Assembly: GCA_903813345.2 (NCBI GenBank)
Contig: CAIIXF020000007.1
Coordinates: forward strand, 29,499,564-29,563,563
Length of the DNA: 64,000 bases
Direction: 5' to 3'
Source: Owenia fusiformis
Taxonomy: Eukaryota; Annelida; Polychaeta; Sabellida; Oweniidae
Position 1 is the stretch's first letter, and the number at the start of each line of letters is the position of its first letter. The notes under the pieces were generated by a model. That model saw only the letters and a list, made by a program, of their open reading frames with translations. It was not told the DNA's origin and searched no databases. Position numbers and translations under genes: made by a program. Positions 3,911-51,900 of the stretch are shown in pieces.

Positions 3911-6900
3911 CTGAAAATAATAATACATTTGAATACTTTAAAAGAATCATAAGGAATTGTGCCCAAATGTTTCAACAGTTGTGAAAGCTTATTTCCTGTG
4001 GGAGGGGAATGGTGTTTTTGTTACTGTAAAATATTGACATTTGGCATAGAAACGAAAGCAAATTAACATTTTTAGCTTTCTTTATACGAGAAACCATAAA
4101 AACATTGACATTTGGACAACAACCCTAACAATTATTATTACTTGGTTCTATATGTTTCTTCCTTCAACTCTAAGACTAGATAATAGACACAAAGAGAAAT
4201 AATGTTGATTTTCAAACTGCGGACATTTTTGGAAAAAGGATGCTTACTGTTGTTAACTGTAGCTAGTCTATGTTGCAGGCTCTCTAGACGTCCCATATAG
4301 TCATCTAGAGACTGGTCTCCAGTGCGGTCTGTTATGTGACTCTCTCTGAAAAATATTTACATTGTATTGAAATAAGAAAGGAGTTAGTATAGAAAGCATT
4401 ATGCATGAACACAATGAATTCAAATTAAAATCTTTACAATACACACAGCTGAAATGTATCAAATTTGAGCCATTTGTATCTAGATGCAAAACGAATGAAC
4501 CCCCATCTGTACCACCTCTAATTATTAACGATATATATATATATCTTTTATTGACTCTTTAGATGTCATATCATATTAGTCACTAAGGTAGAGCAGTTCT
4601 TCCCATTGTCGAGTTGAAGAACTGGTATCTTTATCCTGGCTAGAACCATAGACAATTCTAGCCAGCGCAGCCTTTTATCGAGTTAGCAGCACTCTAGTAA
4701 TCGCCGGTATAGGTCAGCAGTCATAGGTCAAAGACAAATCACAAGAAGTGCTGTGACCTGGGTTTGAACCCAAGACCTCTACTTTTCAGCCTGAAGCCAG
4801 ACTTCCTGCTTTTCAGACTATTAGCTTTGCCAAGAGGTCAAAGATGTTCTGAATTTCATGAAATTCCATATTTTTTCAAGCTTGTAAAATTTAATAAATT
4901 CCACTTTACCTGTGTTGTTCATTGGGAGGTGTTGCGTATGGGGAATGTGTTTGGTAGCGGTCTCCGCTACTGAGATCTAAGACTGGCACGTGAGAATGGA
5001 AGGATCCAGACAGACTATTGGCCCCTGACTTCACTGGGGAGTAGCCCTGGTTCTGAGGAATGTAGCTAGTGCCTGGAGAGGCATTTACATTGCCGATAAC
5101 AGCTGGTGAGCCAATCCTGGTGGCCCTTCTCCATTTACGCACCAAGAACTGCAATCTGAAACGCAGTAATATTTCATATGAAAAATGTCATTCAGACCAG
5201 GTTTTAAATTATGTTGAAAAGAATGGAACTTGCTAAGAATAAAATTCTTCATTGAACAGAAATGACAGAAAAGCTGTTTATTCATTATTTGTACTGCTAT
5301 TTGGGGCTGTAAAATGAAGCCTATTGTGCCATCTTGGAGCATACACTGATCCCAGACCCAGAACCAGCCCTGTACTAGTTCAAAACATAAACACTATACC
5401 TAGACCCAGCCCTGTACTAGTTCAAAACATAAACACTATACCTAGACCCAGCCCTGTACTAGTTCAAAACATAAACACTATACCTAGACCCAGCCCTGTA
5501 CTAGTTCAAAACATAAACACTATACCTAGACCCAGCCCTGTACTAGTTCAAAACATAAACACTATACCTAGACCCAGCCCTGTACTAGTTCAAAACATAA
5601 ACACTATACCTAGACCCAGCCCTGTACTAGTTCAAAACATAAACACTATACCTAGACCCAGCCCTGTACTAGTTCAAAACATAAACACTATACCTAGACA
5701 CAGCAATAATAACCCTGGCAGCAGTTCTAAACCTTGTAAGACCAGGTCTTTGTGGTACTGCCACTGGCGTCTGCAAAGTGTAGCCTCCTATACGGGCGAT
5801 CATGGAGAGTGTATCTTCTTCACCATCTCGGAATCCTCCAAGCAGCAGCAGTAGATATTTCTTCTGGTATATTAAAGCCTTTCTGAAACTCTCTGCTCGG
5901 AGATATCTGCCATATAATCTTTGGATCTGGAATATAGAAAGCATCGATGCTGTATATTAGGGCTGAGCAGTCACTTAAGCAGTTTAGGCAGACTTGTATC
6001 CATGACACTAAAGTTGCAGGTATTAAACAAGCTTAAGATGTACTGTACTGTACTCTACTGTACTCTACTGTACTGTACTGAACTGTTCTGTACCTTGCTC
6101 TTATCCACATCATTTGGTATACTGTTTGCTGGGGAGAAATGCAGCACTTTTAATCTCTCATTGTCCAAGTCTTTCTGTCTCAAGTCTGCCTTCAGTTTGA
6201 TTATTTCCTTCTCCCCCTGGTGTAGAGCCAGTGTGAGGGAGGTACGTTCTCTGGACCAGTGGGCACGCTCATCTGCCAACTTCTCCGCCGAATTCATCTC
6301 TTTCTGTAACTATAATGAAATCGGATAAATTAGCTGCCAAAAATAATAAGTCTTTACATCATAGCATGACATATAACATTTGTTCACATATCTCTGAATG
6401 CAGTGAACACTTCATTCAGGTAAAACAGGTATTGCCATCATCTTACATGTGTGTGTGTTTCAAAATATACACTATTACTAGTACTGCATATGCATCCTCC
6501 GATCACAGGGCTTCAAAATTCAGAATATCTTCTTTCTTTTTACCCCCTGCTATAACCAAGTTGGAACCACCCGATTAAACTGAATCACGTGATCTAATTA
6601 TGCGCCAATGACGTATACATGATTGCTGTGTTGCGACAGCCAATCAAATCACAAGTTCTTAATCGGGGAAATGCTAACTGCTTATAGCAGGGGGGAAGAA
6701 GGAGGTACGGTTTCTGGACACCTGCTTAGGAGGACGCTGCATATGGTAGTGTTACTTTTTGAAAGTCAATGGTGTCTCAAAAGATAAATTAAATTAAAGA
6801 TTGCATTTCAACATTTAAGGTTTGCATTTTGGTGAACTAGTTCTGTTGTATGTAATAAATAATGCACATGTACTGTACATACAATTATTCATGCAGAATT

Positions 6901-9900
6901 TTATGTATTATAGTAACTGACATGCGCATTACAATGTGATTGACATGATTTACAGCCATTGACATTAAAGGCCCTGTGTAAGGTTTGGACACTCCTTCTT
7001 TTAACTTTCAATGAATAGCTTAGTCAAAAGGAATACACGTTACTTTGCATGGGCCTTTAAACATGTTAACTCTTTTGACTGGTAATTAGCAAATTTGTTA
7101 CATTGCTAGGATCAGTAATTAATTTTATTCAAACAGTCATAACTTTTTAACTAGCAATCAAATGTTGATGAAAGTTTCAGTACATGCTGTCAATATATTG
7201 TTCTACCATTTCAAACCATTAAAACATACAAATTCTAGGGTATAGACTAGCAATTACATCATTATCCCATCGAACGAAGTTTGGAGGGATATAGGGAATG
7301 CCTCCGTCCGTCCGTCTGTACGTACGTCCGTCCGTCCGTCCATCGGGGCAATAACTCAAATACCATTGGCTCGATTTTGTTCATATTTTGTACACATATA
7401 CCTTATGGGGGTAGAAGTTCTGCTCGAAAGCCGATTTTCAAAATGGCCGCTCATTTCAAAATGGCGGCCATTTTAGTGCCGACTTTACAGTAATTTAGGT
7501 GCAATATGTAAAACTGTTATATCAATATGTTTTAAATGTAAAAAAATTATAAAGGACATTAATAATGCTACAAATGTAGATATTAAAGAAGCACATGGCA
7601 GCCATCTTGAAAAATGGCGGCCTTTACTCGTCATTTTACGATTTTTGCTATAACTCAAAAAATAGTGGAGCGATTTTGTTCATATTTGGTATGTGAATAC
7701 TATAAGCATGGCACACTGTCCTATGACACTTTTGGTAGAAGGCGGCCATTTTGAAATTTTTTTTGAAAAATGGCCGCCATTTTAACGTATTTTACTATAA
7801 CTCGAAAAGTAGTGGAGCAATTTTGTTCATATTTGATATGTGAATACTTTAAGCATGGCACATTGTCTAATAAAACTTTGGGGAGTAGTCGGCCATTTTT
7901 ATGTGTGTTATTTTACAAGTACGTGTGCGATTTTTCAAAAATTTTAGAGGTGGCTACTGAAAAGCATATTATTTCTTCTGATGACAACTTGGCTAGTGAG
8001 CGACCATTTTGAAAATGGTGGCCTTTCTGGTGTGTTGTTTTATGATATTTGCTATTCGTTTGTAAAAATGCCAGCCATTTCTGTTCGATGGGATTCGCTA
8101 CGCTTTGGCGTTGCCTTTGTTCTGGTTGATCATGATATCATAAATGAGAAAAATAGAATAAAATTAAATAATATTCAATGTAATAATAAAAATAAAATAA
8201 TATCATCCAAAAATCCAAATCAAATCATAATTTTCACCTCGTTTCATCAAGTATCGTTTTCACTGTCCAAATCATTGAATATTTGATCAAAATTGTCCTC
8301 AGTAGCCCTAATGAGAGTTCGAGCTCTAGCAGCAGCCATTTTAAATCCCCTTTTCTTTATTTCAAATAATATTAGCGAAAACATTGGTTTATTTTATGAA
8401 AAGGTCACGAAATATCATTAACTTCCTGTTACATTTATGTTTCGTCCTGTACAAACATAATACACAAGGTTAGACATAGCCTGACATCTATAAATACAAC
8501 GGAAAACTTATCGGCATAGTACATGTATAAAAGTTGACTATAATCGACTTGCCGCAGTTACCGATAGGATGAATTAGTCGACTTACTGGTCAAAAGAGTT
8601 AATCAGTACAAACATGCGTCCAAGATTATCACAATGTGATATCTGAAATTTCAAAAGTAGGTTTTACAGGACAAAGTTCAAGACTGCGGAAAAATTAAAT
8701 AAAATTATTGAAACTGCAATTTTTACTTGATCTTTCAAGGGACAAATTAGAGAAATACTGTGCTTTATTAATTAAAATTGGAGTTTTTGATGATCTAAGA
8801 ATTTTGGCTTTTTATGTTAAAATAGCAGGAAATTCAAATATTTCAAAAACAGAAAGCCAGGTAATAACTTTTTAAAAGGGGCATGACTAAAGACAAACAT
8901 GGGAAATAAATACAAAATGTATATGTTAAGCCTACTCTTGAAGTTCTCAAGAATCCCAGGCCCATTGGTCTCTAGGGGATATGTAATATGTATTTTCTCT
9001 TTTTTATCATTAGCTTTAATATTTAAAACCTAGCAATGTGTATTTGAAAAATATATTTCATCACTCTTGATCTGGGATGAGCTGAAGGTTAATTCAAAAA
9101 ATCTACATACATTTAGCTCACCCATGTTATATATGACAGCTACTGTTAAAATATAGGTCATTTCTATCGAAGACACCCTTCCTTTCAATTTTTTGAAAAA
9201 ATATTTTAATCAATACAAACACGTAGCTGCAAATATGATGTGTTTAAACAGGGACTGCCATGAAAATGTACTACACAGTTCGTGGCCAACTATGTTTGTC
9301 AAAATTCTTTTTTAGTTTACTAGGCTTTTAAATGTAAATAGAATTCAAGCTATTTGAAAGAAAACACATAGTGAATATTGATGCATGCACATACAATATA
9401 AACAAATGATGAATAGACAATATCGAAGGACCATAAATCTTATTTTTCCATTAATGTATTGAGTACATTTTCTTCTGCACAAGTGTTTCTCAATAGTTTG
9501 ATTAAACTTCTTTAAAAGAGAGCTTCATCTTGTAAATACTACTAGTCTTTTGGGTTCATGGTATAGAGTCACATGTCATATTTGCAAGAGTGAAATCTGC
9601 CATTATTTACACAAGTAAAACACTATAACACTAACACTTTAAGAACCTTTTCACTCTAGTTATACATTTAAATATGAATCTTTTGAGGTCATAAATTGAT
9701 CCTTACTAGGGTCAGGTTTCTATGTTTTTATTGAAATGATGATTGACTTGGTGAAAAACGAGACATTCGCTCCTTACTCTATGAGGCTACATTGACCTTT
9801 TGTTAAAGCAAAATTCTAACATTAAACAGCTTTTACATAAAATTCTATTCACTTTGTATATATTGACTAAAGCATTAAAACGTTAAATGTTTTTATCAAA

Positions 9901-12900
9901 TTACAAACAGTGTACTATACTAGTTAATCATTGACTATGTCATGAGAGCGAGACAAGGAAGTTTAAAACATCATGTGATGTGATGTTTGATACAAAGTTA
10001 AGATGGCGACGGTAATGGAAGAACAAGTCAAAGAGACATTGAAATGTAAGTTGTGCTATGAGACATTAACAGACCCAAGGGCACTGCCATGTATGCACAC
10101 ATATTGCTGCAAATGCCTGGATAAATTAGAGAAAACAAAACTAGGAGAGAAACATTGTTTAAGCTGCCCAGAATGTAGAGAAGTTCACACAATACCTACA
10201 GGGGGAGTGGCAAAATTTAAGGTCAATTTCACCACTAGTTCACTAGTGGATCTTTTTCAATCTATGGATATTATTGGAGACAAACCCAAGTGTACAGTAT
10301 GTAAGGAGAGTGAACAAATAGAGACTGATGCTCTAACAAAATGCCTACAATGCAATGAACAATTTTGTAAGGACTGTGATCGATGCCATAGGAAAGTTTT
10401 AAAAGGTCACACAATACTTGACCTTACAGGTGACAAGGCTCAAGATAAACAGAGTGCACTAAAAACTGTAAAACAGCGTGTAGTGTTTTGTGAAACACAT
10501 AAAACCAATCCACTTGAGATATACTGTAAAGTGGATCAATGTGCAGTTTGTGCAACTTGTTACGTGATTAACCATTCTAACCACGAGTGCATGGATGTCA
10601 ACAAGGCTGCGGAAGACAATGTGAAATTAATAGATGACCTCCTCAAGAAAGGTGACAAGTTGGTAGAGAGCTTTGAACAAACCGTACAAAACACCCATAC
10701 CAAGAAAGATAAAATGGAGCAAGAAGCAGATAATGTGACTCATGAACTTAACAATGATATGAACATAGCTCTCCAAGCAGTCCGGGATAAATACACAAAG
10801 AATATCAACCTAGTGGCTGAGAAAAGGGCCATGTGTGCCAAACAGGCAATTGCTCATTTAGGACACTTAGAAATGCAGAAGGCCACAACTGAAAGCACAA
10901 TGAGCCAGCTACATACATTGAAACAACATGGACATGCTACCCAACTAGCTAACATGGCCCAAGACATCACTACAAAATCAAACGAATGGTCTAACACCAA
11001 GGCATCTGAGTTTGACTCAAATATTACATTCACATTTAAAAGAGGTAAGGTATATGATGATAGAATTGTGTTTAGTAAGGTGGACATACAGAATTTGAGA
11101 GACACAACCTCCATTAAAAGATCAACAATAAAACATGTTAAGCCAACAGTTTTAAAGACGAAAAAACTAAATGAGATTAATCAAGTATGCGATTTAGCTG
11201 TTACAAACAGTAATAAAGTGGTAGCTAATGGTTCCAATACCCCATCATATCTCTATGACAAGAACTTTACTTTGAAAACGACATTCGGTGAAAAATGTAT
11301 CAATGTTGATACTAATGATGAAGAGATATATCTCACCAGTAAAACTGATACAGTCAGCATATACCACCAGGATGGCACACACATTAGAGATTTAAAGTTA
11401 CCCAGATTGAAACAATGTAGAGGTATTGCAGTGAACTCAAGAGGGGAACTTGTTATATGTGACATGCATGCAAAGGCTGTATATCATGTTGATAGTGCAA
11501 CTGGTAACATCATGACTCAGTCTAAAGAAGGGGTTTTCATTAACCCTCTCTGGGTAGCTGTCAATAGCAAAGATGTGGTGATAGTATCTGATCGCAGTGC
11601 AAACTGTGTGGTGGGAATGACCAGAGATGGTAATGAGCTGTTCAGGTATGGGACTTATGGTGATGGACAGAACCAACTACACAACCCTTGGGGTCTTTGT
11701 ACAGATACAGCAGACAATATCATAGTGGCTGACTGTTCGAACCACAGGGTACATTTGTTAGGACCAGATGGCAAGTTTATCAAATATCTCCTGACATCAT
11801 CAGATGGACTACAGTGCCCTGGAGCTGTAGCAGTGGACAATGAGGGACAACTGTTAGTAGGGGATAGGAGTGGCAATATCTGGATTGTGAAATACACAGA
11901 GTAAACAATGTACACTGCACATGTTCATAACACAGCAGTATTATTGCCCCAATATAATATACACTGATTTATGAGAAACTGCCATAATCCACTTGATCTC
12001 TTGAATACCTGGAGTGACGGATATATCAATCATAGAATTTCTCACTAAAATGGCGCTTACTTTGACAAATGTTGTTGAATTTATACAAATTATGTTTTAA
12101 TATGTGTTAAGTTGGCCCATGTTCACTAATATCATCAAATGAACATTGATCATTGTATATTAGAAAGTAAAATGAAAAATGCTGGTATTCAAGTTGGAAT
12201 GCACTTAGTAAAAATAAAATGGTGTCCTTTTTTCAGTGAAACTATTGTGTTTCTTTATTGAAAGCCATGCAAAAGTAATAACATAGAAGCAATGTATTTT
12301 GAGTGTGACTCATCTAAATGTAAAGATTTAACAGGGTTGAGATGAGATGTTTTGTAAATGTGAAATATCATATACTTGTCTCCGACATATTTATCCATCT
12401 ATTTAATTATCAAGCAAAACCCACAGCTATACTGAAATTCATGTTTCACTATTTTTGCATGATGGCTTTGATTGACATATTCAGTACATTGGTATTGACA
12501 AGCACAAATGGTGACTGAAGTGAACACATAGAACATGCAGAAATATCAAATCTTACCGATCCAGTCACATTGACCAACAGTCCAGATGTAAGCTACAAAG
12601 TGTAGATGGAACAACATAGGCTTTAGGCCAATAAAATAATTTTACATGTACCTTGTTTATAGAATGAATATGTTTAAGCAGAAATAGGAATTTTTTGTTG
12701 TTTGAAAATTGCATACTGAAAAATGATTCATACTGTACATCGCAAAATGGACCTTCCACTTAATGAGAGATCAGTGTAGAATATAATGTGAATCATATTA
12801 TTATAGACAGCACCTACCACATAGCTGTTCATTTTCACAGATGACACTGACTACTTTTACCTTTCACTTTTATGTTTTAATACTGTCCACAATTCAAATT

Positions 12901-15900
12901 CATTTCTCAAAATATAATAAGTCCTCAAAAAAGCAATATCAACCTTTGAATTATACTATCATTCAACTATGATAAAAACCCTAATTTTTTGAAAACACTT
13001 TTCCAAGTTTTGATTACAGAAAACCTAAATCCACCAGATTAAGATATGGTACAGGAGGGAGATCAAGTAGAGGCACAAGGAGAAAACTGAGTAGAAGTAC
13101 ATTGAAGAAAATAAGTCGAGGCACAGGTCTTACCTGACTAGTGTTTGCCTCTTTGATACGGTATCTATGAATCTCCTCTTCTAGAGAGCCAAGTGTACGT
13201 CGCAAGTCCTGCTTTTCTTCACTAAGGTGTGCAATGAACTGAGTCAGCTCTGCATTCTGCTTCAGGACACGTTCATGAACCCCACCCTCTACTGGCCTTG
13301 ATTCTGTCTCCTGTTATGATAAAACATAATTTATTTAGGAACATGTAATCAGAAAAGTTCAGTCAAAAGTGCTACACTATCAAAGTCAATGTGGTAACTA
13401 GCATATACTAGCATAGCTAGTAACTAGCATATACCACTAGCTGACCCTGAATTTCAACAAAACTAAATGTTAAGAGAATGCGTTCTTAAAATACAAAAGT
13501 TGCCTCCCATCCTCTAGAACCCATCTAATAAGAATAAGAACATGGGCATAGCTAGTTATAGAAAGTATATATCGTTATGACGTTAGAAAGGTTAAACCCT
13601 TGTGAGGGCACCATAAAAATATTTCTTTAACAAAAGGAGACTGTCTGTAGCATTTCCTGCTGCAACACTTTTGAGAAAAATGAGATTTGCCCAAAACTCC
13701 TCACCTGTCCAGTGTTAGATATAGATGTCTCTAGTTGTCGCAGATCAGACATCAAACCATCTAAATTCTCACTGAGATCCTGCACCTCTGCCTGCCCACC
13801 CGATATCTCATGTGGTCCCGCCACTTTACGATCGGTCACGCGAGAAAGTAGTTCCTGATATCGAATCACGAGCAGCTGTAGCTGTTGACGTGTTGACTCT
13901 AGTTCAGTTCTATGGTGAGAGGTGATTTTTGTAGCACCTCCTGTCTTTACCTGGGGACAGAGAGAATATATCTTATTTTACAGTATATACAAGGTAGACC
14001 ATGAAATAACATGAACATCATTCATTCATTCATTCAATTGAGACTCACTTATATCAAAATTTTAATTAATTTTCTTGATCTGATTCATTATTTTTCTATC
14101 AAACTCATTTAGTATGAATGAATTGTCCCAAGATCTTTGTGGTTTTGGATTGGACTTCTGAATAGAGGGGAGGGGGGAGTTAATTTGTTTTATTGGATTT
14201 GCTTTTCATAACAATGGTACTGCTCTTACATTTTTATTTTTCATGCTGTGTTTTGTTTTGCAACGTGTTTTTCTCTTTTTGACACATGTGCTTACATATC
14301 CATAACATGAAATTCAAATTTTTTCATCACTTGTTAAAAGAGCTCTCAATACTGCAATAGTAGTTTGTATAGCCATACTTACCACAGGGGGTCTGTTATC
14401 TATGGATGATGTAAAAGATCCACTCATGTTATCTTGACTATCTTCCGCCTCGGCAACCTGTCTCCGCAACGCAGACACCTGAGACTTTAAATGCTGGATA
14501 TCATACTCATATTTCATCTGCAATATAAGCATTAACATCAAATGCTGGATATCATACTCATATTTCATCTGCAATATAAGCATTAACATCAAATGCTGGA
14601 TATCATACTCATATTTCATCTGCAATATAAGCATTAACATCAAATGCTGGATATCATACTCATATTTCATCTGCAATATAAGCATTAACATCAAATGCTG
14701 GATATCATACTCATATTTCATCTGCAATATAAGCATTAACATCAAATGCTGGATATCATACTCATATTTCATCTGCAATATAAGCATTAACATCAAATGC
14801 TGGATATCATACTCATATTTCATCTGCAATATCAGCATTAACATCAAATGCTGGATATCATACTCATATTTCATCTGCAATATAAGCATTAACATCAAAT
14901 GCTGGATATCATACTCATATTTCATCTGCAATATAAGCATTAACATCAAATGCTGGATATCATACTCATATTTCATCTGCAATATAAGCATTAACATCAA
15001 ATGTTGGATATCATACTCATATTTCATATGCAATATAAGCATTAACATCAAATGCTGGATATCATACTCATATTTCATCTGCAATATAAGCATTAACATA
15101 ACATGCTGGATATCATACTCATATTTCATCTGCAATATAAGCATTAACATCAAATTCTGGATATCATACTCATATTTCATCTGCAATATAAGCATTAACA
15201 CCACATGCTGGACATCATACTCATATTTCATCTGCAATATAAGCATTAACATCAAATGCTGGATATCATACTCATATTTCATCTGCAATATAAGCATTAA
15301 CATCACATGCTGGATATCATACTCATATTTCATCTGCAATATAAGCATTAACATCAAATGCTGGATATCATACTCATATTTCATCTGCAATATAAGCATT
15401 AACATCAAATGCTGGATATCATACTCATATTTCATCTGCAATATAAGCATTAACATCAAATGCTGGATATCATACTCATATTTCATCTGCAATATAAGCA
15501 TTAACATCAAATGTTGGATATCATACTCATATTTCATATGCAATATAAGCATTAACATCAAATGCTGGATATCATACTCATATTTCATCTGCAATATAAG
15601 CATTAACATAACATGCTGGATATCATACTCATATTTCATCTGCAATATAAGCATTAACATCAAATGCTGGATATCATACTCATATTTCATCTGCAATATA
15701 AGCATTAACATCAAATGCTGGATATCATACTCATATTTCATCTGCAATATAAGCATTAACATCAAATTCTGGATATCATACTCATATTTCATCTGCAATA
15801 TAAGCATTAACACCACATGCTGGACATCATACTCATATTTCATCTGCAATATAAGCATTAACATCAAATGCTGGATATCATACTCATATTTCATCTGCAA

Positions 15901-18900
15901 TATCAGCATTAACATCAAATGCTGGATATCATACTCATATTTCATCTGCAATATAAGCATTAACATCAAATGCTGGATATCATACTCATATTTCATCTGC
16001 AATATAAGCATTAACATCAAATGCTGGATATCATACTCATATTTCATCTGCAATATAAGCATTAACATCAAATGCTGGATATCATACTCATATTTCATCT
16101 GCAATATAAGCATTAACATCAAATGCTGGATATCATACTCATATTTCATCTGCAATATAAGCATTAACATCACATGCTGGATATCATACTCATATTTCAT
16201 CTGCAATATAAGCATTAACATCAAATGCTGGATATCATACTCATATTTCATCTGCAATATAAGCATTAACATCAAATGCTGGATATCATACTCATATTTC
16301 ATCTGCAATATAAGCATTAACACCACATGCTGGACATCATACTCATATTTCATCTGCAATATAAGCATTAACATCAAATGCTGGATATCATACTCATATT
16401 TCATCTGCAATATAAGCATTAACATCAAATGCTAGATATCATACTCATATTTCATCTGCAATATAAGCATTAACATCAAATGCTGGATATCATACTCATA
16501 TTTCATCTGCAATATAAGCATTAACATCAAATGCTAGATATCATACTCATATTTCATCTGCAATATAAGCATTAACATCAAATGCTGGATATCATACTCA
16601 TATTTCATCTGCAATATAAACATTAACATCAAATGCTGGATATCATACTCATATTTCATCTGCAATATAACCATTAATATCAAATGCTGGATATCATACT
16701 CATATTTCATCTGCAATATAAACATTAACTCTTATCAGTCTATCAGTGACTATACCTGCAAAATTCTCTAGTGTCTGTTGATGAGTAAGTGAGTGAGTTT
16801 ATTCATCCAAAACCCACATTATTGAAAATAGCAGACCACAGGTTTAAATCCAGTGAAATGCCCCAGACTCTTAAGAGTTAAAATAGGAAATAAAGGATCA
16901 TGCAAAGAAAAAAATTTCTATTAATTTTAGTGCTGTCTTTTGAGATACATCTGATTTTTCTTCATAAAATAAAAACAAATACAATTTCCCTCATGTATTT
17001 GTTTTCATTGTATTCCACGTACCAATGTTTGTCTCTGTCTCTCATTCTCTCTCTCTTTCTCCCTGGCTCTCTCCCTTTCTAGCTGTAACTCTCCTTCTCT
17101 GTTATTCTCCCTCTCTCTCTCCCTCTCCTTGCTTGCCTGTAAGCTTTCATGTAGTCTATCAAACTCTGCCTCAAGCTTGGTCACCTTCTGGCGCTCATAA
17201 TCCAGTTGGTGAGCAAAGTCAACCTTCTCAGTCTTGATAGAAAAAATACAAAATACTTGTATTGAACTCATAGAAATCTTTCAACAGCATATTTTGCTTT
17301 TGACCAATACCTTTATCTTAAATTCTTAGCAATTTTCTAGCCTATTTGGACTATTCAGTATCCCGAACCACTCTCAAATAATTTTCAAAAGCATTAAGAG
17401 CAGAACAGGTTAATTCAGACCTGATAATATAGATCATGGGTTTAAAATCATGTGAGGTTATGAAATAACAATCAGTGTGGAAGTAATGACCGCAAATAAG
17501 CCATTTGTTCCAAAAGTAATTGAAACCATTTTGGCTTTTATGGTCTCATTTCAGATGCTAGCTCAAAGGCAGAATCAGATCTATGGGTGTGACAAAATTA
17601 CAAGCAACATGTACAATTGACCTACCAATCTATTCCTTACAATCTCAAATACAATATCTCCAGATATATCATAAATTGTTGAAGTTATGATGGATTAAAA
17701 GTACAAAAATGGGTGAAAAATGTTTAAATTCTCCCAAATAATAAGAATGGTAACCAATAATAAATAATACATTATTGTAAAAATCTTTAGTTTTCCTGAA
17801 ATAAAGTGTGTACTATGGAGATTTTTGGAAAATAGACATGAAAAGGAATGACACAAGCCAGAAATATTCTAAAATTGAAACAATTTTTTGTTTGGCTGCT
17901 TGCTATATCTGATTCTCTCTTTAAGGTCATTCACTGACAAAAGGAGCTCCACTCACCTCTATGGCATCTTGACTGGCCTTCAGTTTACGCCTAGTAGACC
18001 TCTCTCTCTCCTGAGACTCCACAAGTTCCACCTTCTCAACCTCCAGTTGCTCTGACAGGCTAGTCACCTATGTAATATACCACAGAGATGTTTATCATAA
18101 AGACACATGGGGGACAGGGGTCCCCAGCTATGTAATATACCACAGAGGTGTTTATCATAAAGACACATAGGGGAAAGGGGTCCCCAGCTATGTAATATAA
18201 CACAGAGGTGTTTATCATAAAGACACATAGGGGACAGGGGTCCCCAGCTATGTAATATACCATAAAGATGTTTATCATAAAGACACATGGGGGACAGGGG
18301 TCCCCAGCTACGTAATATACCATAGAGATGTTTATCATAAAGACATATAGGGGACAGGGGTTCCCAGCTGTCAAATATCACTACTGTATTGATGCTGAAT
18401 AAAAGAACATAGAGATTATTTAAAGGGAGGTTTTTGATATAGGGTATATCTGAGGACAATACAATATATCTACCCGAGGGACCGTAAGTTTAATGGGGGA
18501 CTACAGACAGAATATGTGAACCAAGAATATGAACCAAGAAAATGAATGCTAGGAATCAACTCAGGCTGAGACATTTCTTTTGCACAGTGTTAGATTTGCA
18601 CATACAAAGTCTTACCTTGTATCGTTCACGCTCTAAGGCATTTGTGATTTCCAAATTCTTAGTTCTCTCTAAGTCTATAGCTGACTGTAGGTTCTCTATT
18701 GATTCTCGGTCTCTCTGTGACTGGCCCTGCTTGATCTCCTCTAGGGCAGAACTCATCTGAAGCCTGTAACATAGACTGCATTTGTAAAAGGTCCCAATTG
18801 AGGTGATTGAAACCGAACGTAAATGTAAAGATGAATTATATTTTTTCTAGAAGAGCAATTTTGATGTTTTGTTATTGGAAGAATTTCTATTTTATCAAAA

Positions 18901-21900: not shown

Positions 21901-24900
21901 GATGTAAGAGAAATCGAAATTGATTTATGAAAGTCAGCTAACTCACTCTGTCTTTGCCAATGACGCTCTTTCTGACTCAGGCTTTCCTCGGTTGAGATTA
22001 GTTGTCTGCGTACATCCTCCTGGTGGTCATCAGCCTCACTTTGGATAGTGGACAAGTGAGCCCGCAGGTCGCGGATCTCCGCTAATTGCGAGCGACGGTC
22101 TGCCTCAAAGATTTGTTCTAGTGAGCTTTCTTGATGTAAAGCCTAAATAAAAATTAATGTTAATGCTTTCATGAAATGTTCAAACTTTATGACCTTCACA
22201 CCTTAAACAAGGCAATAACATGAAAAAAATGTTGCCACCTGCCATTTGTTACAGATGTCGAATGTTCACCACCGCGCCCAACCGCCAAATGCCAACAGCT
22301 TAACACCGTCCCCAAAAAAGTTGGAGACTATAAAACTGTAAGTGAAAACGCAATGTTCAATAAATTAAGATGACTACTACCCCCTCCCTCTCCCCAGTCA
22401 TTATAGACAACTCTGGATACAATCTCTTGCTTTAATCTCTATCTGAAATATTACATCCACAATACACTGGAATACTTACCAAGGCTTTGACTCTTTGTTC
22501 CAATTGCTCTACGTGTGTTTGGGCCTGCCCAGCCTGGCCAGTGTGTGAGCTGGTGACAGCAGTCCTCAGTTCTGACATGAGATGTTCCCGCTCTCTTGTG
22601 AACACACTGTTCACGGCCTTGATGAGCTCACCCCTCCAATCACCATGGACATCCTAGGAACAATAGTAACAAGTTAACACTCAAAATACATGGCATACTA
22701 TTTATTGAATTTGGCGTGTTAAAAATTTCATGTAGAAAAGGTGACCCACTTAAAAAATTTTTAACAGTTTTTAATGTATACACAAATAATTTTGTGTGCC
22801 ACAGTTTGCATCAATCAAATAAAGTTGACAATGTGGAGCAAACATATTTTACGAATCTGAGACATATGTATGAGAGGTAAAAGTTACCATGTCAGGTGTC
22901 TTAAGGTCAGCTAGCAGGGCTTTCAGAGATTCTATAGTCTGTTGTAGGTTACGTTTCTCACTCTGCCATGCCTCTTGTTGCACATCTAGGTCAAGCCCCT
23001 GTGTTGCAACGGTCGCCCCCATAGAGTTCCGTTGGTGGTCACGTAACATCTCAAGTTCAGACAAAGTGAGAACCTGGATACCTTCATTGTGAAGGCGTTG
23101 AACTATATTCTGAAATAATAACAGGAATAGTGCTAAAACACTCACTTTAAATTCTGGCAATTATGGAAAATGAATATTAATTTTTCTGTAAATATCTTCA
23201 TTGTCAGTCATCACCATTCATATTCTCAGTATTTAAAAAGAAATACTCATTTCAACCACTCAACATAGAAAACTTGGAAGTGGGACTACTGTAAGCAATT
23301 CAAACCTGTAATTTCTCAGGGGTAACAGAGCCAGAATCTGAAATCTCAGAGCCAGGGCTGCTATCTCTGCGACCTCCTTGCTCACTCTGTAGCAGTTGAC
23401 TGATGAGTTTGTTATCCAATATTTCCGTGGCAACAACTTCTCGCTGCACTCGTTGACCTAGCTCTGCAACAGATGAGGAATCATCTCCTACAAAGAAAAT
23501 TTGAGTTTTTATACTCAGCAGTCATTTGTATTAATTGGTTTACTCATGTTATTCATAATATGGCCAACACTCAATATTACAAAGTTGTTTGTAAAAGGTA
23601 ATCATTCTCGATATCTTTGCCATCCGACAATTCCTTTTTTCAACTTTTCTACTAGACCAAAAACAAAATTAAAATTTCAATCCACTGATTCCAGAAAGTG
23701 ACATTTGTATTTGATAAAGTATACTGCATTTCAATCTTGACTCAACGTAACCTCCAAAGTTTGTGACATAGCCTCAAAATGCTTAAGTTGTGGTACTTTT
23801 GGCAACAACAGGTATGTAGAACTCACCTTGTATAGAATGTCTACGAGCCTCTAAATCAAACTGTGCCCTCAAATCACCCATCTGTTCCACATGTGCAGCT
23901 CTCTCATGTTCGAGTCTCTGCTCATAAGAACTCCTCACTTCTTTGAGAGTCTCTTCATGATTCTTCTTTGATTGTTCTAGCTCTTTGGTATGTTGTGTTA
24001 GGATATCCTGCATAGTCTCAGCTTGTTTGGCTTCCAGTTCTTCAAGTTTAACTACAGCAGCTTCCTTCTCATGCTCTAATAGAGCACGTACATCAGATAA
24101 CGCCTGTAATATATGAATATGAGTTACAGCTTTTCCCTCACATAAAGAGTGGACAGTCTCTTATTAAAGATCAATTTCTAATTTAATTTCTTTAGTGATC
24201 CATCTCGATTTTTCTCTAAGATTTTCCAATTTTCAACATGATGTAGCACCCAGCTTCTCAATGTTGAGGAGAGCACTATTAAAGTATTAAAAGCAGATTG
24301 ATTGTTGAAAGTATCAGATAAGTCATACATGCACTCAAAGTCAATAAATAGCAATAAAACCATTTGACCTTACATATACTTGAATATGCACATTGTTTCA
24401 TTTTATAGATTTGTACAAGTTAAATTATGGATAAACAGCCTATACACTCTAAATGATCTCAAAAGTGTGATTTCTAGCAATTGTCAACCTACAGTTGGTC
24501 ATATAGTTCATACCAATAATGACCTGAAAGTTTCATATGAATTTCATGATTAAATTTGAAACATAAATTGTAATGAATTTTAAAGTATCAATAAAATGGC
24601 CTATATTCTAAGGTTTTTGATTGTAATAATCACCTCTGAATGTAGGGGGAGGGCATAAGACACTATTTCTTTGTACAGTAGATTATTGTTTGGGATGTTT
24701 GGGGTTTGCTTCCTTATAACTGATTGCACTTTTAAACGTTCCTCTTTATCTTTGTTTAAAATATATTTGGATTTTAACAACCCGGCACTTTCTAACTTTG
24801 TCCCAACGATATTGCAACTCACCTGTTCATTGTCTGAAGCATTTGTTGCGTCATGAATACGTTCTTTGAGCTCTTCCTTCTCTAAATTATGGCGATGTTC

Positions 24901-27900
24901 CACCTCAGCCAGTTGTTCGTTGTGCTCTCTCACTATTTCATCCAGCTGTGTGTCCTTCTCCGTCATCTGTTGTTCAAGACTATCAACAGTAGCATTCTTA
25001 TCAATTAGCTGTAACTGGAAGCTATCAATTGTTGCATTGTTGTTTGTAATCTGTTGTTCAAGTGCATGGATTGTTTTCTCGTTGTTTGTCAGTTTTTGTT
25101 GTAATGTTTCTAATGTTGTAATATTGTCAGTTAATTGATTCTGTAGGGATTCTATTGTTGTGTTTTTGTCAATTATTTCTTGTTGGATGCTGTCTATGTC
25201 CACATTGTTGTCTGATGAACCTTGTTGTTGTAAATTCTCTGATGTTGTATTTTTGTGTTTCAGCTGTTCTTCAAGCTGATCTATTGTTGTATTTTTGTCT
25301 GTTATAAGTTGTTGGAGAGTTTCTATTGTTGCATTATTGTCAGTCAGTTGTTGTTGTAAACTATCTGTTGTTGTATATTGATCTGTTAGTTGTTGTTGAA
25401 GATTATCAATTGTTGTATCTTTGTTCTGAAACAACAACACAATATTCATACACTAATAAATATATTCTTTCCACATCTGCTTTTAAAGTAATGTTTTTGC
25501 AGATGTATTCTGAAGAATACTTATTAAAACCTATCAAAAAAGGAATATTTTCACTTTATCTCACCACAATAAGCAATTGCTTGTGACTGACCAACTTGTA
25601 CAAAGGTACATGAATGATAAAATGAAGGGGTGAATTTCTGATTTTTGGTATTATCATATGCATTCTTATTGGCATTATCATATGCCAAAAATCTATTCAG
25701 AAGTTCAGTGTCACAATTCTTGCTGACTAAACACATTAACGTGCTTATTCCATTTTAAAACAAGACCACTATGCAAAATCTAAAGGGTTAGCATACCTTG
25801 AGTTGTTCTATGATGTCCTCCATGTTGGACTGTGAGCGAGTGCTGGAATCCAGATCTTCTTTTAGTGTACTCAGTTTATGATCAGATCTCACCAACTCCT
25901 CATCTTTGATGTTTAACTCTGCATGGAGGGTATCAACATCTTCAAGCATCATTTCCTAAAAGTTCATTTAATTAATTATTATTTAATAACATAATTAATA
26001 GTAATTTTGCTCCTAAAAATAAAATTCCATATATCACAGATCTTAGAATTACATTTCTACGTGGCCCGTTTTAATTTTTTGTTTGGATGGGGTCGGTGCT
26101 ATCACAAAATTTAAGAAGCCTTTTATTTACTTAAAATATTGATTTTTAAAAAGTTTTGGCCCAATGAGGTTGCTGCATATTCTAGGATCTGCGATATATT
26201 AAGAGGTTATATCACTCTGACGTGAAATATGCCTGAGTTCTCCCAATATAGGCCGACCTTGGGAGGCTCTATATTTGGGCAAGAACAAAGGCATAATGTC
26301 ACAGTAACACAACCTTTATTCCCATGGCAACTTTGTATCAATGAGGTCACATATCTGTTTGCGAGTATGTATGTATGTAAGTATGAATCTTTAAGATCGA
26401 AATGAAACATGACGTTGTGATATTGCCATGGTTATTAAAGAATCTAATATGAAAAAACGAGGTAAGGGGGCTATTTCGGGGTAATCAGGCAATATCGTAA
26501 AAAATATAGCCTGCTAACTTTCCTATTGACATCAATACAAATGCTTTGTTAGGTATGTAATACATGAAATGATGTCACTATCCTCAAGTTGAGTCAAATT
26601 GTTGCATGGTCACAGTTATCCTGATAATCAATTACAAATTGTAGGCAAAGACATAAATTCTCCCAAAAATTTGAACAATTTGTTATTAACCTGTGAAGCC
26701 AATTTTTCATTTAACATTTCCATCTCCTCTGCCTTTTCCTCAATGACATTGTCATTCTCCCTGAGATCTCTCTCCATTTTCTCAATCTGTGCATCATAGG
26801 TGTCTTTGATGGCATGAAGGTCATCCACAGTATGTGTCAGTGAGTCTATATCTGCCTCTCTCTCCTCAACCATACGCTGCATAGTGTCAAAGTCATCCTG
26901 CAGTTTAGCCTACAAGTACATATTGACAGTATACAGTGAAACCTAGTGTAACACCTCTAGAAGTGGAACACCCCTGTTAGCGGAACATTTTTCAAGGTGT
27001 CAAGACCAACTGACTTAATGTTTAAATGAACCTCCATAAGTGGAACACCCCCCCCCCAGTAGAAGAATTGTTAGAGGTTCCAAAGGTATTCCACTTTGAC
27101 AGGTTCTACTGAAATAAGTGTTGGAAGTGTCAACTATAAAAAGTGAACTTCCTTTTGTTAAATGGCTTTCATCAATCCTCAAATAAATGTTTATCTCTGA
27201 ATCCTATATCCTTTTATATCATGTATATTTCTGTATAGTATTATATGCACTATTTTGTATGGATATGTATATGAAATCAGAAATAAATTTATTAAAAAAA
27301 AAAAAAACTATAAAAAGTGTAATAGGGGCATTGTTATAAATGAATAGAGTGATATGTGTGTATATGAAGTGTACAGAATTGTTAGTCACAAAATGAAGAG
27401 AGAAGAGTCTTATTTTGATGTGTGCTTGAAAATGTCATTTTGATATCGTATATGGAGGTGTTAAATTGAATGAATGGAACCTCATAGGCCTCATTTTTGA
27501 TATATAATGGAGGAATGTGAGAATTATATTATGTAGTAGTTATATCTAATAAGGTGTAATAATTTTAAATGCATAGCATATGAAGGTAAGTGTCATTTTC
27601 AATGAATAAAAGTATAAAAAAATAGTCAATTTAAATGACGATTTATTTTCTCATACTTTACCTGGAAATCTTTAAGACTCTGTATTTCCTGTTGTAGTTG
27701 TGTGTTCTGTAAAGTCAACTGCTCAATTTTCTCTTCTCTCTCCAGCAGTACACTGTCTATGGACACATTGTCTTGTTGTGTGTCTACTGTGTCTTGTGTG
27801 TCTGCAGTGAGTTGTTGTGTGTCCAGTTGGTCTTGCTGAGTGTCCACATTATCTTGTTGCGATGCTGCATCAACAAATTCTTTGGCTTGGTCTTCTTTGG

Positions 27901-48900: not shown

Positions 48901-51900
48901 ACCACCAGATCTAAAAATAGTATGAAATGCCTAGCGAAGAATGAAGCATGATTACAATTTGAATGTTCATATACATTAGCGAAAAATACAATGTTGCAAG
49001 CTATTTTTGACTTGAAGTTCATACTATTTTTAGATCAATTTGTTTTATAATTGAACTGCATTATTCATGTATTTGTACATATGTTAAAAGTTAAATTAAA
49101 TAAAATAAAAAAATAAATAAAATAAACCACCAGATGTGATAATGTGTATGCAAGTAAGAAAATTTAGGAGAGTCAATTAACCCATACATTTAATACTTCA
49201 TGGATAATCGAAAGGGAAAACAATTGAATCAAAAGTCTTTTTAAAGATGCATTATACCATAGGTTTCTCCCCTAGACAACCAATGATGTCCTATTGTTAT
49301 TGCTCATATAATATCTCACATACCATGGATATATCTTGAGAATAACTTTTGGGTATATTATTGTCGAAATGCTGAAATAATCAACAGAACAACCAACCTC
49401 CAAAATTAAACACAATCGATTCCTCGGCTAGCGAGGGGAATCTCCATTGAATCACACAAGCGCCTTGAACCAGGCAGCCAATCAGGTTCATGATAAACAA
49501 ATTCAACGGCCAATCAGATAACAGGGGAACTTTCCCGGTATCAAACTCCCATGCAGTGATATATCACTGCGACGGGCAGGTATCTCACCGTAAGCACGGT
49601 AATGTCGTAATAAACAACTGACGTGATTGGTTCTAGTCCCATGCTCAGGTTGCGTGATTGTAAAATTTAGACAACTTCATTGGTTGAATTGCGCGTATTA
49701 ACTAATAAACAACACGTGCGGTAAACTATTATCAACACAACTTTTACTCAGAATTCCTTCCGCGGTGATTTCTTTTCATATTTCAATAATTTTGAGATAA
49801 TTTGACAAAATAATGACTGGGGAACATTCATGAATACATATTTTATAAGTTGTGTGAAAATTGACCACATATACGATGAAAAGGGGAACTGTTTTTACCA
49901 AATTTTGGGGATTTTCTTCATCTGCCCGCTGCAGTGTCTATACCGAGACACTGCATGGGAGTTCGTCCCGGTATATTCAAGCTTCAGATTGAATTAATTT
50001 GTGCGAAAATAATTAGATCGGCCAGCACAATCGCAAAATTTACACTGAAAGAGGGGGATTTGGGACTTTTTCTTTGGTAAGTAGATGGGTGAATATGTGG
50101 TGAAACTCAATAAGCAAAAAAGTCCAGAGGGGTCTTGATTGTGCTATCCTATGGCATATAGCCTCTTTAAGGAACATCTGTCTGGATAAAGAGCATAAAA
50201 GATTTAAGGACCTCATATTGTTGACTCACCAGTCTTCTGCATGAGTTCCACATGATACTTGTTGACTTGTTGCTGGAGCCTCTCTTCCCACTCCTGTTCC
50301 TTCTCACTAAGCTGTTTCTCATGCTGCTCTCTGAGGTTATTACATTGTTCCACAAGAGCATTTGTCTTCTCCAGCTCAAGCTCTGTCTTCAGGAGGTCTA
50401 TCTGGCTGGCATGGACCTCGCCCAGTGTTGTCTTCATTGAATCTAACTGGCTTTGTAGCTCAACCTGTAAACACCATGGCAACATAAATATACAATTAAG
50501 CCTGTGAACAAGGAATGCTCTCCAGTATTTAAATACATACAAAATATTAGCTGGCTCTGCAGCTCAACCTGTAAGCACAATGACATTGTTTAAGACAATG
50601 TTCTCCAATAAATTAGGCTTTTCTGGCTGTGCTTTGTATGATATGGTATAACATGATTATCAGTTTTGAAAGTGACTTTGAGGCTAAAATAATTGATTTA
50701 ATACTTTTTATGCTAAATGATATATAGTTAGTTATGAAACGATCTCATTCATGATCATCGGAAAATAAGAAAAATATGGAAAAAGTAAGAATAACAAAAA
50801 ACTTAAATAACATTTTTTTTGTTGAACTTACCGAATGTTGTTCTGTTATGGCCTTTAACTGAGCCTCGTGTCCCTCTTCAAGCTTCTGTTTCAGCTCAGC
50901 AAACTTCAGTTGGTGAGCAGCATCCAACTGACTATATAAGGCGTCCACATCCTTAACAAAACGCAAAAAAATATTAACATTTTAAATTCTAATACACAAG
51001 AACATATAACCAGAGATTTTTATGAGGTAAGAGGAAACTGTAAATGTCGTTAGATTGGCAGATACAATATTTCGCGCCATGTGGAGGATGGGATTTACGC
51101 ACGTTTTTAATTTCACATACCAAGGTGCTGAATGGTCTACAGTACATTATTCCATTAATGCACTGGTCTATACTGTTTGTTACATTGAAAGAGACTAAAA
51201 GGGGAGTTTCTTTGATTCTGATTGTAAATCATCATAAATCTTCATCGCGATAGCCGTGCCCGCTTTGTTTTTATCCTTCCAAAGTGAACGGCAGATAAGA
51301 GGGGCTCTGGCATATACCAGAATACTAAATCTTACATTATTAACCAACTTTGAAACACATTTTTTTCAATTTACTTTTAAAACTTAAAGAGGTGAAACCG
51401 GACAAACTCAAATCTGATTTTGTCATGGAGCTACTAGGAGAGCAATATATGAAAGGTTTAAAAATATCAGAAAAGATACACTGATATGAAAGGTTTAAAA
51501 ATATCAGTAAAGATCTACTGATATGAAAGGTTTAGAAATATCAGAAAAGATCTACTGATATGAAAGGTTTAGAAATATCAGAAAAGATCTACTGATATGA
51601 AAGGTTTAGAAATATCAGAAAAGATCTACTGATATGAAAGGTTTAAAAATATCAGTTAAGATCTACTGATATGAAAGGTTTAAAAATATCAGTAAAGATC
51701 TACTGATATGAGAGGTTTAAAAATATCAGTAAAGATCTACTGATATGAGAGGTTTAAAAATATCAGTAAAGATCTACTGATATGAAAGGTTTAAAAATAT
51801 CAGTAAAGATCTACTGATATGAAAGGTTTAAAAATATCAGTAAAGATCTAAAGATCTACAGAAGTCTGTATTTCACGAGACGCCAGCATTATAGCACTAT

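Follow-up and report, generated by a model that had tools for sequence, protein, structure and literature searches.

When a minisatellite repeats the end of an intron together with the start of the next exon, does it lengthen the encoded protein, or does it leave with the intron? The question is raised by a 64,000-nucleotide stretch of the Owenia fusiformis genome (contig CAIIXF020000007.1, positions 29,499,564 to 29,563,563; here called the window and numbered from its first base), whose minus strand carries an AKAP9-like gene in which one 3′ splice site stands in 44 full tandem copies. The initial annotation of this array left two possibilities, a length-variable coding repeat or a repeat tolerated because it is harmless. 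We favor the second and not the first, because 12 of 12 homologues lack the insert, units differ from one another in an apparently neutral way, and the alternative copies of two sister arrays would truncate the protein. The array is probably a large new mirage, the name given in lancelets to minisatellite-like copies of intron-exon boundaries (PMC3087553), and one that is normally excised with its intron.

Structure of the array

In the orientation of the gene, one 51-bp unit copies the 22 nt at the end of an intron and the 29 nt that begin exon 14517-14383. Tandem Repeats Finder (TRF), tiling at a fixed 51-bp register, and read-through from every acceptor reproduced the annotated array, period, frame, and splice-site content; the 44 units stood, but the full units extend to 16732, slightly beyond the annotated far edge at 16729. 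Tandem repetition is far above chance (TRF score of 4279; 97% matches). Units are numbered from k = 0, at the true exon, to k = 43, at the far edge. They fall into 12 types, with 23 of the 44 identical to the consensus and 32 sharing its 22-nt intron end. The intron part is closed by ATATTGCAG in 42 units, whereas units 10 and 20 have AT in place of the acceptor AG and read ATATTGCAT.

Each unit was compared with an acceptor profile built from 38 further modelled acceptors, four chain exons being excluded; these 38 were themselves scored by leave-one-out. The standard unit scored 5.41, exceeding 32 of the 38 (0.94% of 3840 background AGs reach this value), and thus counts as a complete acceptor, which bears out the annotated composition of the unit. 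The far unit's acceptor scored 3.25. Because the profile excludes the AG itself, units 10 and 20 also score 5.41 though they are not acceptors. Direct reading found candidate branch points as well: every standard unit has two yUnAy matches, of which TTTGAT arises at the unit-unit joins. The candidate adenines in unit 0 lie at 14538 (TTTGAT, −21) and 14532 (GTTAAT, −15), and a putative branch point, CTGAT with its A at 16735, lies in the far flank just beyond the repeated segment.

A 20-mer spanning the junction was matched exactly 42 times across the 498-Mb assembly, each time within this array, which is found inside a 39.8-Mb contig. An assembly artifact, in the array itself or in its length, seems barely credible: long near-identical arrays are generally prone to miscounting, and the count of 44 comes from one assembly and is unproven as an exact number, but the arrangement of the 12 unit types is structured, with divergence at the far edge, and the array occupies a single locus of a very long contig. 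A dispersed element (transposon or introner) was considered and rejected on the 20-mer matches, which come from an exact search only. A 568-bp query from the array flank gave one full match, and no second haplotype was found with it; its 17 other matches are pieces of 41 to 103 bp, 73 to 90% identical, within one part of the query. Polymorphism of array length between individuals is plausible.

Conservation of the exon junction

The spliced minus-strand model, built by dynamic programming with hand-added exons, describes a long coiled-coil gene. Exons are wrong or absent in its upstream part, and the best full frame holds 66 stops after two doubtful exons were dropped and one edge was moved. 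The exons from 18067 to 4910 are open, without a stop, and join into a protein of 524 amino acids with a PACT domain (PF10495; E value of 8.8e-23). Among the best 120 of 1467 matches, Lingula anatina supplies the top one, an AKAP9-like protein (326 bits; 37% identity), followed by scallops, other bivalves, and lancelet (32% identity to Branchiostoma floridae, which speaks against Branchiostoma as the host if the two proteins are orthologs); neither these matches nor the 58 listed by another search include a protein similar enough to be the species' own. The gene belongs to the AKAP9/pericentrin family: its best-named homologues are AKAP9-like or pericentrin-like, and PACT lies at the C-terminal end. 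An AKAP9 tree placed the window protein with Lingula, Lamellibrachia, Lytechinus, Branchiostoma, and vertebrates (97/96), apart from molluscs; the shortest paths lead to Branchiostoma (2.14) and Lingula (2.17), and the tree does not fix the phylum.

When the junction of exons 17232-17023 and 14517-14383 was aligned, 12 of 12 chosen homologues were found to lack an insert near 17 residues. Lamellibrachia has three extra residues at the junction, and the lancelet homologue lacks about 18 residues somewhat upstream of it. Splicing at acceptor k = 0 thus gives the short form, which is the conserved one. The exon-adjacent AG is most likely the regularly used one. The peptides MKYEYDIQ, KYEYD, and LMLMLIL were absent from 178 fetched proteins, and a query of seven added units plus the exon returned nothing at an E value of ≤0.001 among 5442 candidates; this negative is weak, since the species' own proteins were not among the listed matches in either case.

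The open reading frame of the unit

Read-through into the exon is open from 36 of the 42 acceptors (35 of the 41 upstream ones and the exon's own), so that the annotated claim of mostly open read-through stands while its count of roughly 37 usable upstream acceptors drops to 35. A stop is met from the remaining six, k = 38 to 43. As annotated, the stops themselves lie in two far units only, units 38 and 40, where CAG has become TAG about 1.9 and 2.0 kb from the exon. Since the 17-codon period is stop-free, the plus strand of the array is also open, for 650 codons (14483-16435).

The coding reading would have the 35 open upstream acceptors extend the coiled coil before PACT by n × 17 residues (MKYEYDIQHLMLMLILQ). 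The open read-through, the period of exactly 17 codons, the scores of the upstream acceptors, which resemble that of the true one, and an invariant run in the exon part (see below) argue for it. We nevertheless consider it unlikely, given the uninterrupted junction in the homologues, the lack of the module in the searches above, a neutral mix of changes with stops in two units, an openness that is likely chance, and sister arrays that are closed. A related proposal, that the array acts as a splicing ladder, in which choice among 36 in-frame, near-equal acceptors yields AKAP9 proteins whose lengths step by 17 residues and whose distribution depends on tissue, allele, or cell, is likewise improbable. 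Were it true, mirages would make new protein length and not only new introns.

The open frame, unlike the tandem repetition, is not beyond chance: the unit also stays open in the exon's frame with 22 of the 42 other modelled acceptor 22-mers of the gene. A period divisible by three is expected one time in three, which combined with openness gives ~0.17 (about once in six), and the open frame of the unit is likely due to chance.

Changes among the units look neutral. In the exon frame, the 12 distinct changes (three edge differences of unit 43 excluded) comprise 2 synonymous, 9 missense, and 1 stop, against 1.6, 9.4, and 0.9 of 12 under a uniform model; the missense T at −22 becomes synonymous if it arose on a unit already bearing the G change at 27, which makes the count 3/8/1. 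These counts give no sign of protein-level constraint on the unit, in what is a weak test with small numbers. Of the 29 exon positions 5 are variable, and of the 22 intron positions 7 (P = 0.32); the longest invariant run is the first 18 nt of the exon part (P = 0.04). MUC1 is a coding variable-number tandem repeat (VNTR) with an in-frame tandem unit; compared with VNTRs of that type, this array showed no sign, in the searches and counts above, of translation of, or selection on, its unit.

Further splice-site arrays in the gene

Two more arrays sit on junctions of the same gene (Table 1). The 60-bp array ends exactly at an acceptor, and read-through from 4 of 4 upstream copies meets a stop. 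The 42-bp array repeats the end of the PACT exon with its donor, TCTAG/GTATAG, which is present eight times, the true donor included; reading beyond the true donor (5694) gives YSVYVLN and then a stop, and 7 of 7 alternative copies are closed. An intact protein therefore needs the exon-adjacent copy at both arrays. The on-junction periods of 42, 51, and 60 bp are all multiples of three, and since two of the three arrays are closed in frame, divisibility by three alone is no argument for coding.

Three of the gene's four minisatellites touch a junction (P = 0.0017 under random allowed placement, for a set defined after looking); the fourth is intronic. Copies within 4 kb were found at 4 of the 88 modelled junctions. 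The fourth of these is the acceptor of exon 50464, which together with the exon start has a single old copy 104 bp upstream; it could be read as an older duplication of this kind or one that failed.

Table 1. Positions in the window of the arrays, the exons they adjoin, and single units of interest
Feature	Position	Strand	Basis or remark
Main array, 44 full units × 51 bp	14489..16732	−	TRF; tiling at fixed 51-bp register
Exon copied by the array, 135 nt, phase 0 to 0, donor GTAAGT	14383..14517	−	Frame open with neighbors
AG of exon-adjacent acceptor (unit 0), most likely the one used	14518..14519	−	Tiling, acceptor profile
Candidate branch-point matches, unit 0	14530..14542	−	Direct reading, putative
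Unit 10, AG to AT, acceptor lost	15028..15029	−	Fixed-register tiling
Unit 20, AG to AT, acceptor lost	15538..15539	−	Fixed-register tiling
Unit 38, in-frame TAG	16432..16434	−	Tiling; acceptor read-through
Unit 40, in-frame TAG	16534..16536	−	Tiling; acceptor read-through
Preceding exon, donor GTACGT	17023..17232	−	Gene model, open frame
Second splice-site array, 60 bp × 5	18068..18369	−	TRF; ends at acceptor of exon 17957-18067
Exon after 60-bp array	17957..18067	−	Gene model, open frame
Third splice-site array, 42 bp × 8.3	5356..5704	−	Repeats PACT-exon end and donor
PACT-domain exon, adjoining 42-bp array	5694..5926	−	PF10495, E value of 8.8e-23 on joined protein
Single old copy of acceptor and start of exon 50464	50548..50585	−	84% over 38 bp, 104 bp upstream
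Minisatellite, 37 bp × 10.9	51447-51850		TRF; intronic, away from modelled exons

History of the array and choice of acceptor

From the far edge to the exon, the unit types run ABCDEDEFGEHEEEEEIFJEEHKLEEEHEFJHKLEEEIEEEEEE. Types A, B, and C are singletons confined to the far edge; units 0 to 5 are identical; and the block F-J-H-K-L-E-E-E is present twice, once with two extra E units inside. Read from the sequence, this order suggests that a 51-bp segment, from −22 to +29 around the acceptor, was tandemly duplicated across the intron-exon boundary and that the array then grew by single-unit and multiunit steps, leaving an old, divergent far edge and identical units on the exon side. In the RNA, the array would most likely form the tail end of an excised 2505-nt intron, the spliceosome presumably joining the acceptor next to the body of the exon. 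Upstream acceptors, being of similar strength, may see low-level use, which would add n × 17 residues or, from units 38 to 43, bring in a stop.

We found a minisatellite that spans the boundary, a splice signal in many units, and an edge unit outside homogenization, three of the marks of a mirage. That it is silent is argued by units that cross the boundary, keep AG in 42 of 44 cases, and occur at one locus; by the array-free junction being the conserved one in all 12 homologues; by sister arrays closed at every alternative copy (4/4 and 7/7); and by a neutral pattern of changes with unremarkable openness. Lancelet mirages share this anatomy and are reported not to disturb splicing (PMC3087553, PMC3902484), and in human CBS, splicing of a duplicated acceptor junction favors the distal copy (PMC2630376).

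Several observations weigh on the other side. By profile score, the upstream acceptors are no weaker than the exon-adjacent one, and with the exact 22-nt intron end common to 32 of 44 units, the acceptor itself gives no reason for the last one to win. Splicing at the far-edge acceptor would bring back an intron of 312 nt, the short ancestral one, and intron definition could favor that acceptor. An invariant run of 18 nt opens the exon part (P = 0.04). Finally, in the VNTR of human ABCA7 intron 18, where every unit carries a donor, one unit is retained in ~2% of transcripts and skipping of exon 19 increases with VNTR length (PMC5954066).

ABCA7 is also the precedent for a further alternative, in which the array alters dosage or exon inclusion and long alleles are weaker, either because the 135-nt exon is skipped in a length-dependent way or because splicing from units 38 to 43 is nonproductive. 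Skipping would keep the frame because the exon runs from phase 0 to phase 0, and 6 of the 42 acceptors do lead to a stop, but splicing is reported as undisturbed by lancelet mirages, and we give this alternative little weight beside a mirage that is excised with its intron. Forty-two acceptors in one intron, with the same intron end in 32 units, make a natural test of acceptor choice by position only.

Comparison with known systems

In lancelets, Adh3 mirage units measure 10 to 72 bp, the globin mirage BflGb6 copies the 3′ end of an intron with the start of exon 2, and BflGb9 copies the 3′ boundary of exon 2; mirages are reported to be unstable in length, also somatically, and are proposed as a source of new introns (PMC3087553). 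A second paper names PGBD5, Adh, and troponin C as similar (PMC3902484). Lancelet mirages and the Owenia array have in common tandem boundary copies with splice signals and edge units that escape homogenization, and the AKAP9-like gene, like lancelets, has such arrays on both acceptor and donor sides. It differs in its 44 units, in three arrays within one gene, and in a unit that is open in frame. Our searches of open-licence papers revealed none of these arrays in invertebrates other than lancelets; their presence at several splice sites of a single gene, in an animal that is not Branchiostoma-like, would widen the phenomenon described there.

Human genes offer partial parallels. In CBS 844ins68, the intron 7/exon 8 junction is duplicated, and of the two acceptors that result the distal one is strongly preferred (PMC2630376, where the wording is "donor" although the junction named is an acceptor); a copied acceptor junction is common to it and the Owenia array, but CBS 844ins68 has one extra copy and no array. 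The 31-bp VNTR of CBS (c.1444_1467+7), polymorphic at 16 to 21 units (PMC2630376), also spans an exon end and an intron start by its coordinates, but it lies on the donor side and its period is not divisible by three. The ABCA7 VNTR shares a splice site per unit and low-level unit retention and differs in having a donor and a 25-bp, out-of-frame unit. Tandem repeats that lie on human exon-intron boundaries may be a cause of new introns (PMC2812944).

Prevalence and other features of the window

In 200 kb of C1, 0 of 9 arrays touched a predicted junction within 5 bp; one of the nine sits inside a predicted exon, ending 14 bp from its end. No junction with a nearby copy was seen among the 58 belonging to 29 predicted exons (13 strong; exons unverified), nor among the 32 belonging to 16 others predicted around the window, some of them alternative edges of the same gene; in the gene model, 4 of 88 junctions have one. 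The exon predictor recovered 37 of 44 model exons exactly, having been trained on most of them. With predicted exons this few and unverified, we make no genome-wide claim. Two repeats within predicted exons were seen along the way, one of 27 bp × 13.4 (L011, 7229-7584) and one of 81 bp × 4.8 in a strong predicted exon (L016, 7550-7923), the latter with a motif that suggests a zinc-knuckle protein.

A search of Rfam at gathering thresholds gave no match within the window. A coding exon at 24823-25425 (minus strand) carries degenerate 42-nt (14-residue) repeats of the type TTIDxLQQQLTD. The largest modelled intron of the AKAP9-like gene (6310-13133) contains, on the opposite strand, an intronless TRIM-like gene (9991-11904) whose NHL and B-box domains score above the cutoff and whose RING domain scores just below it.

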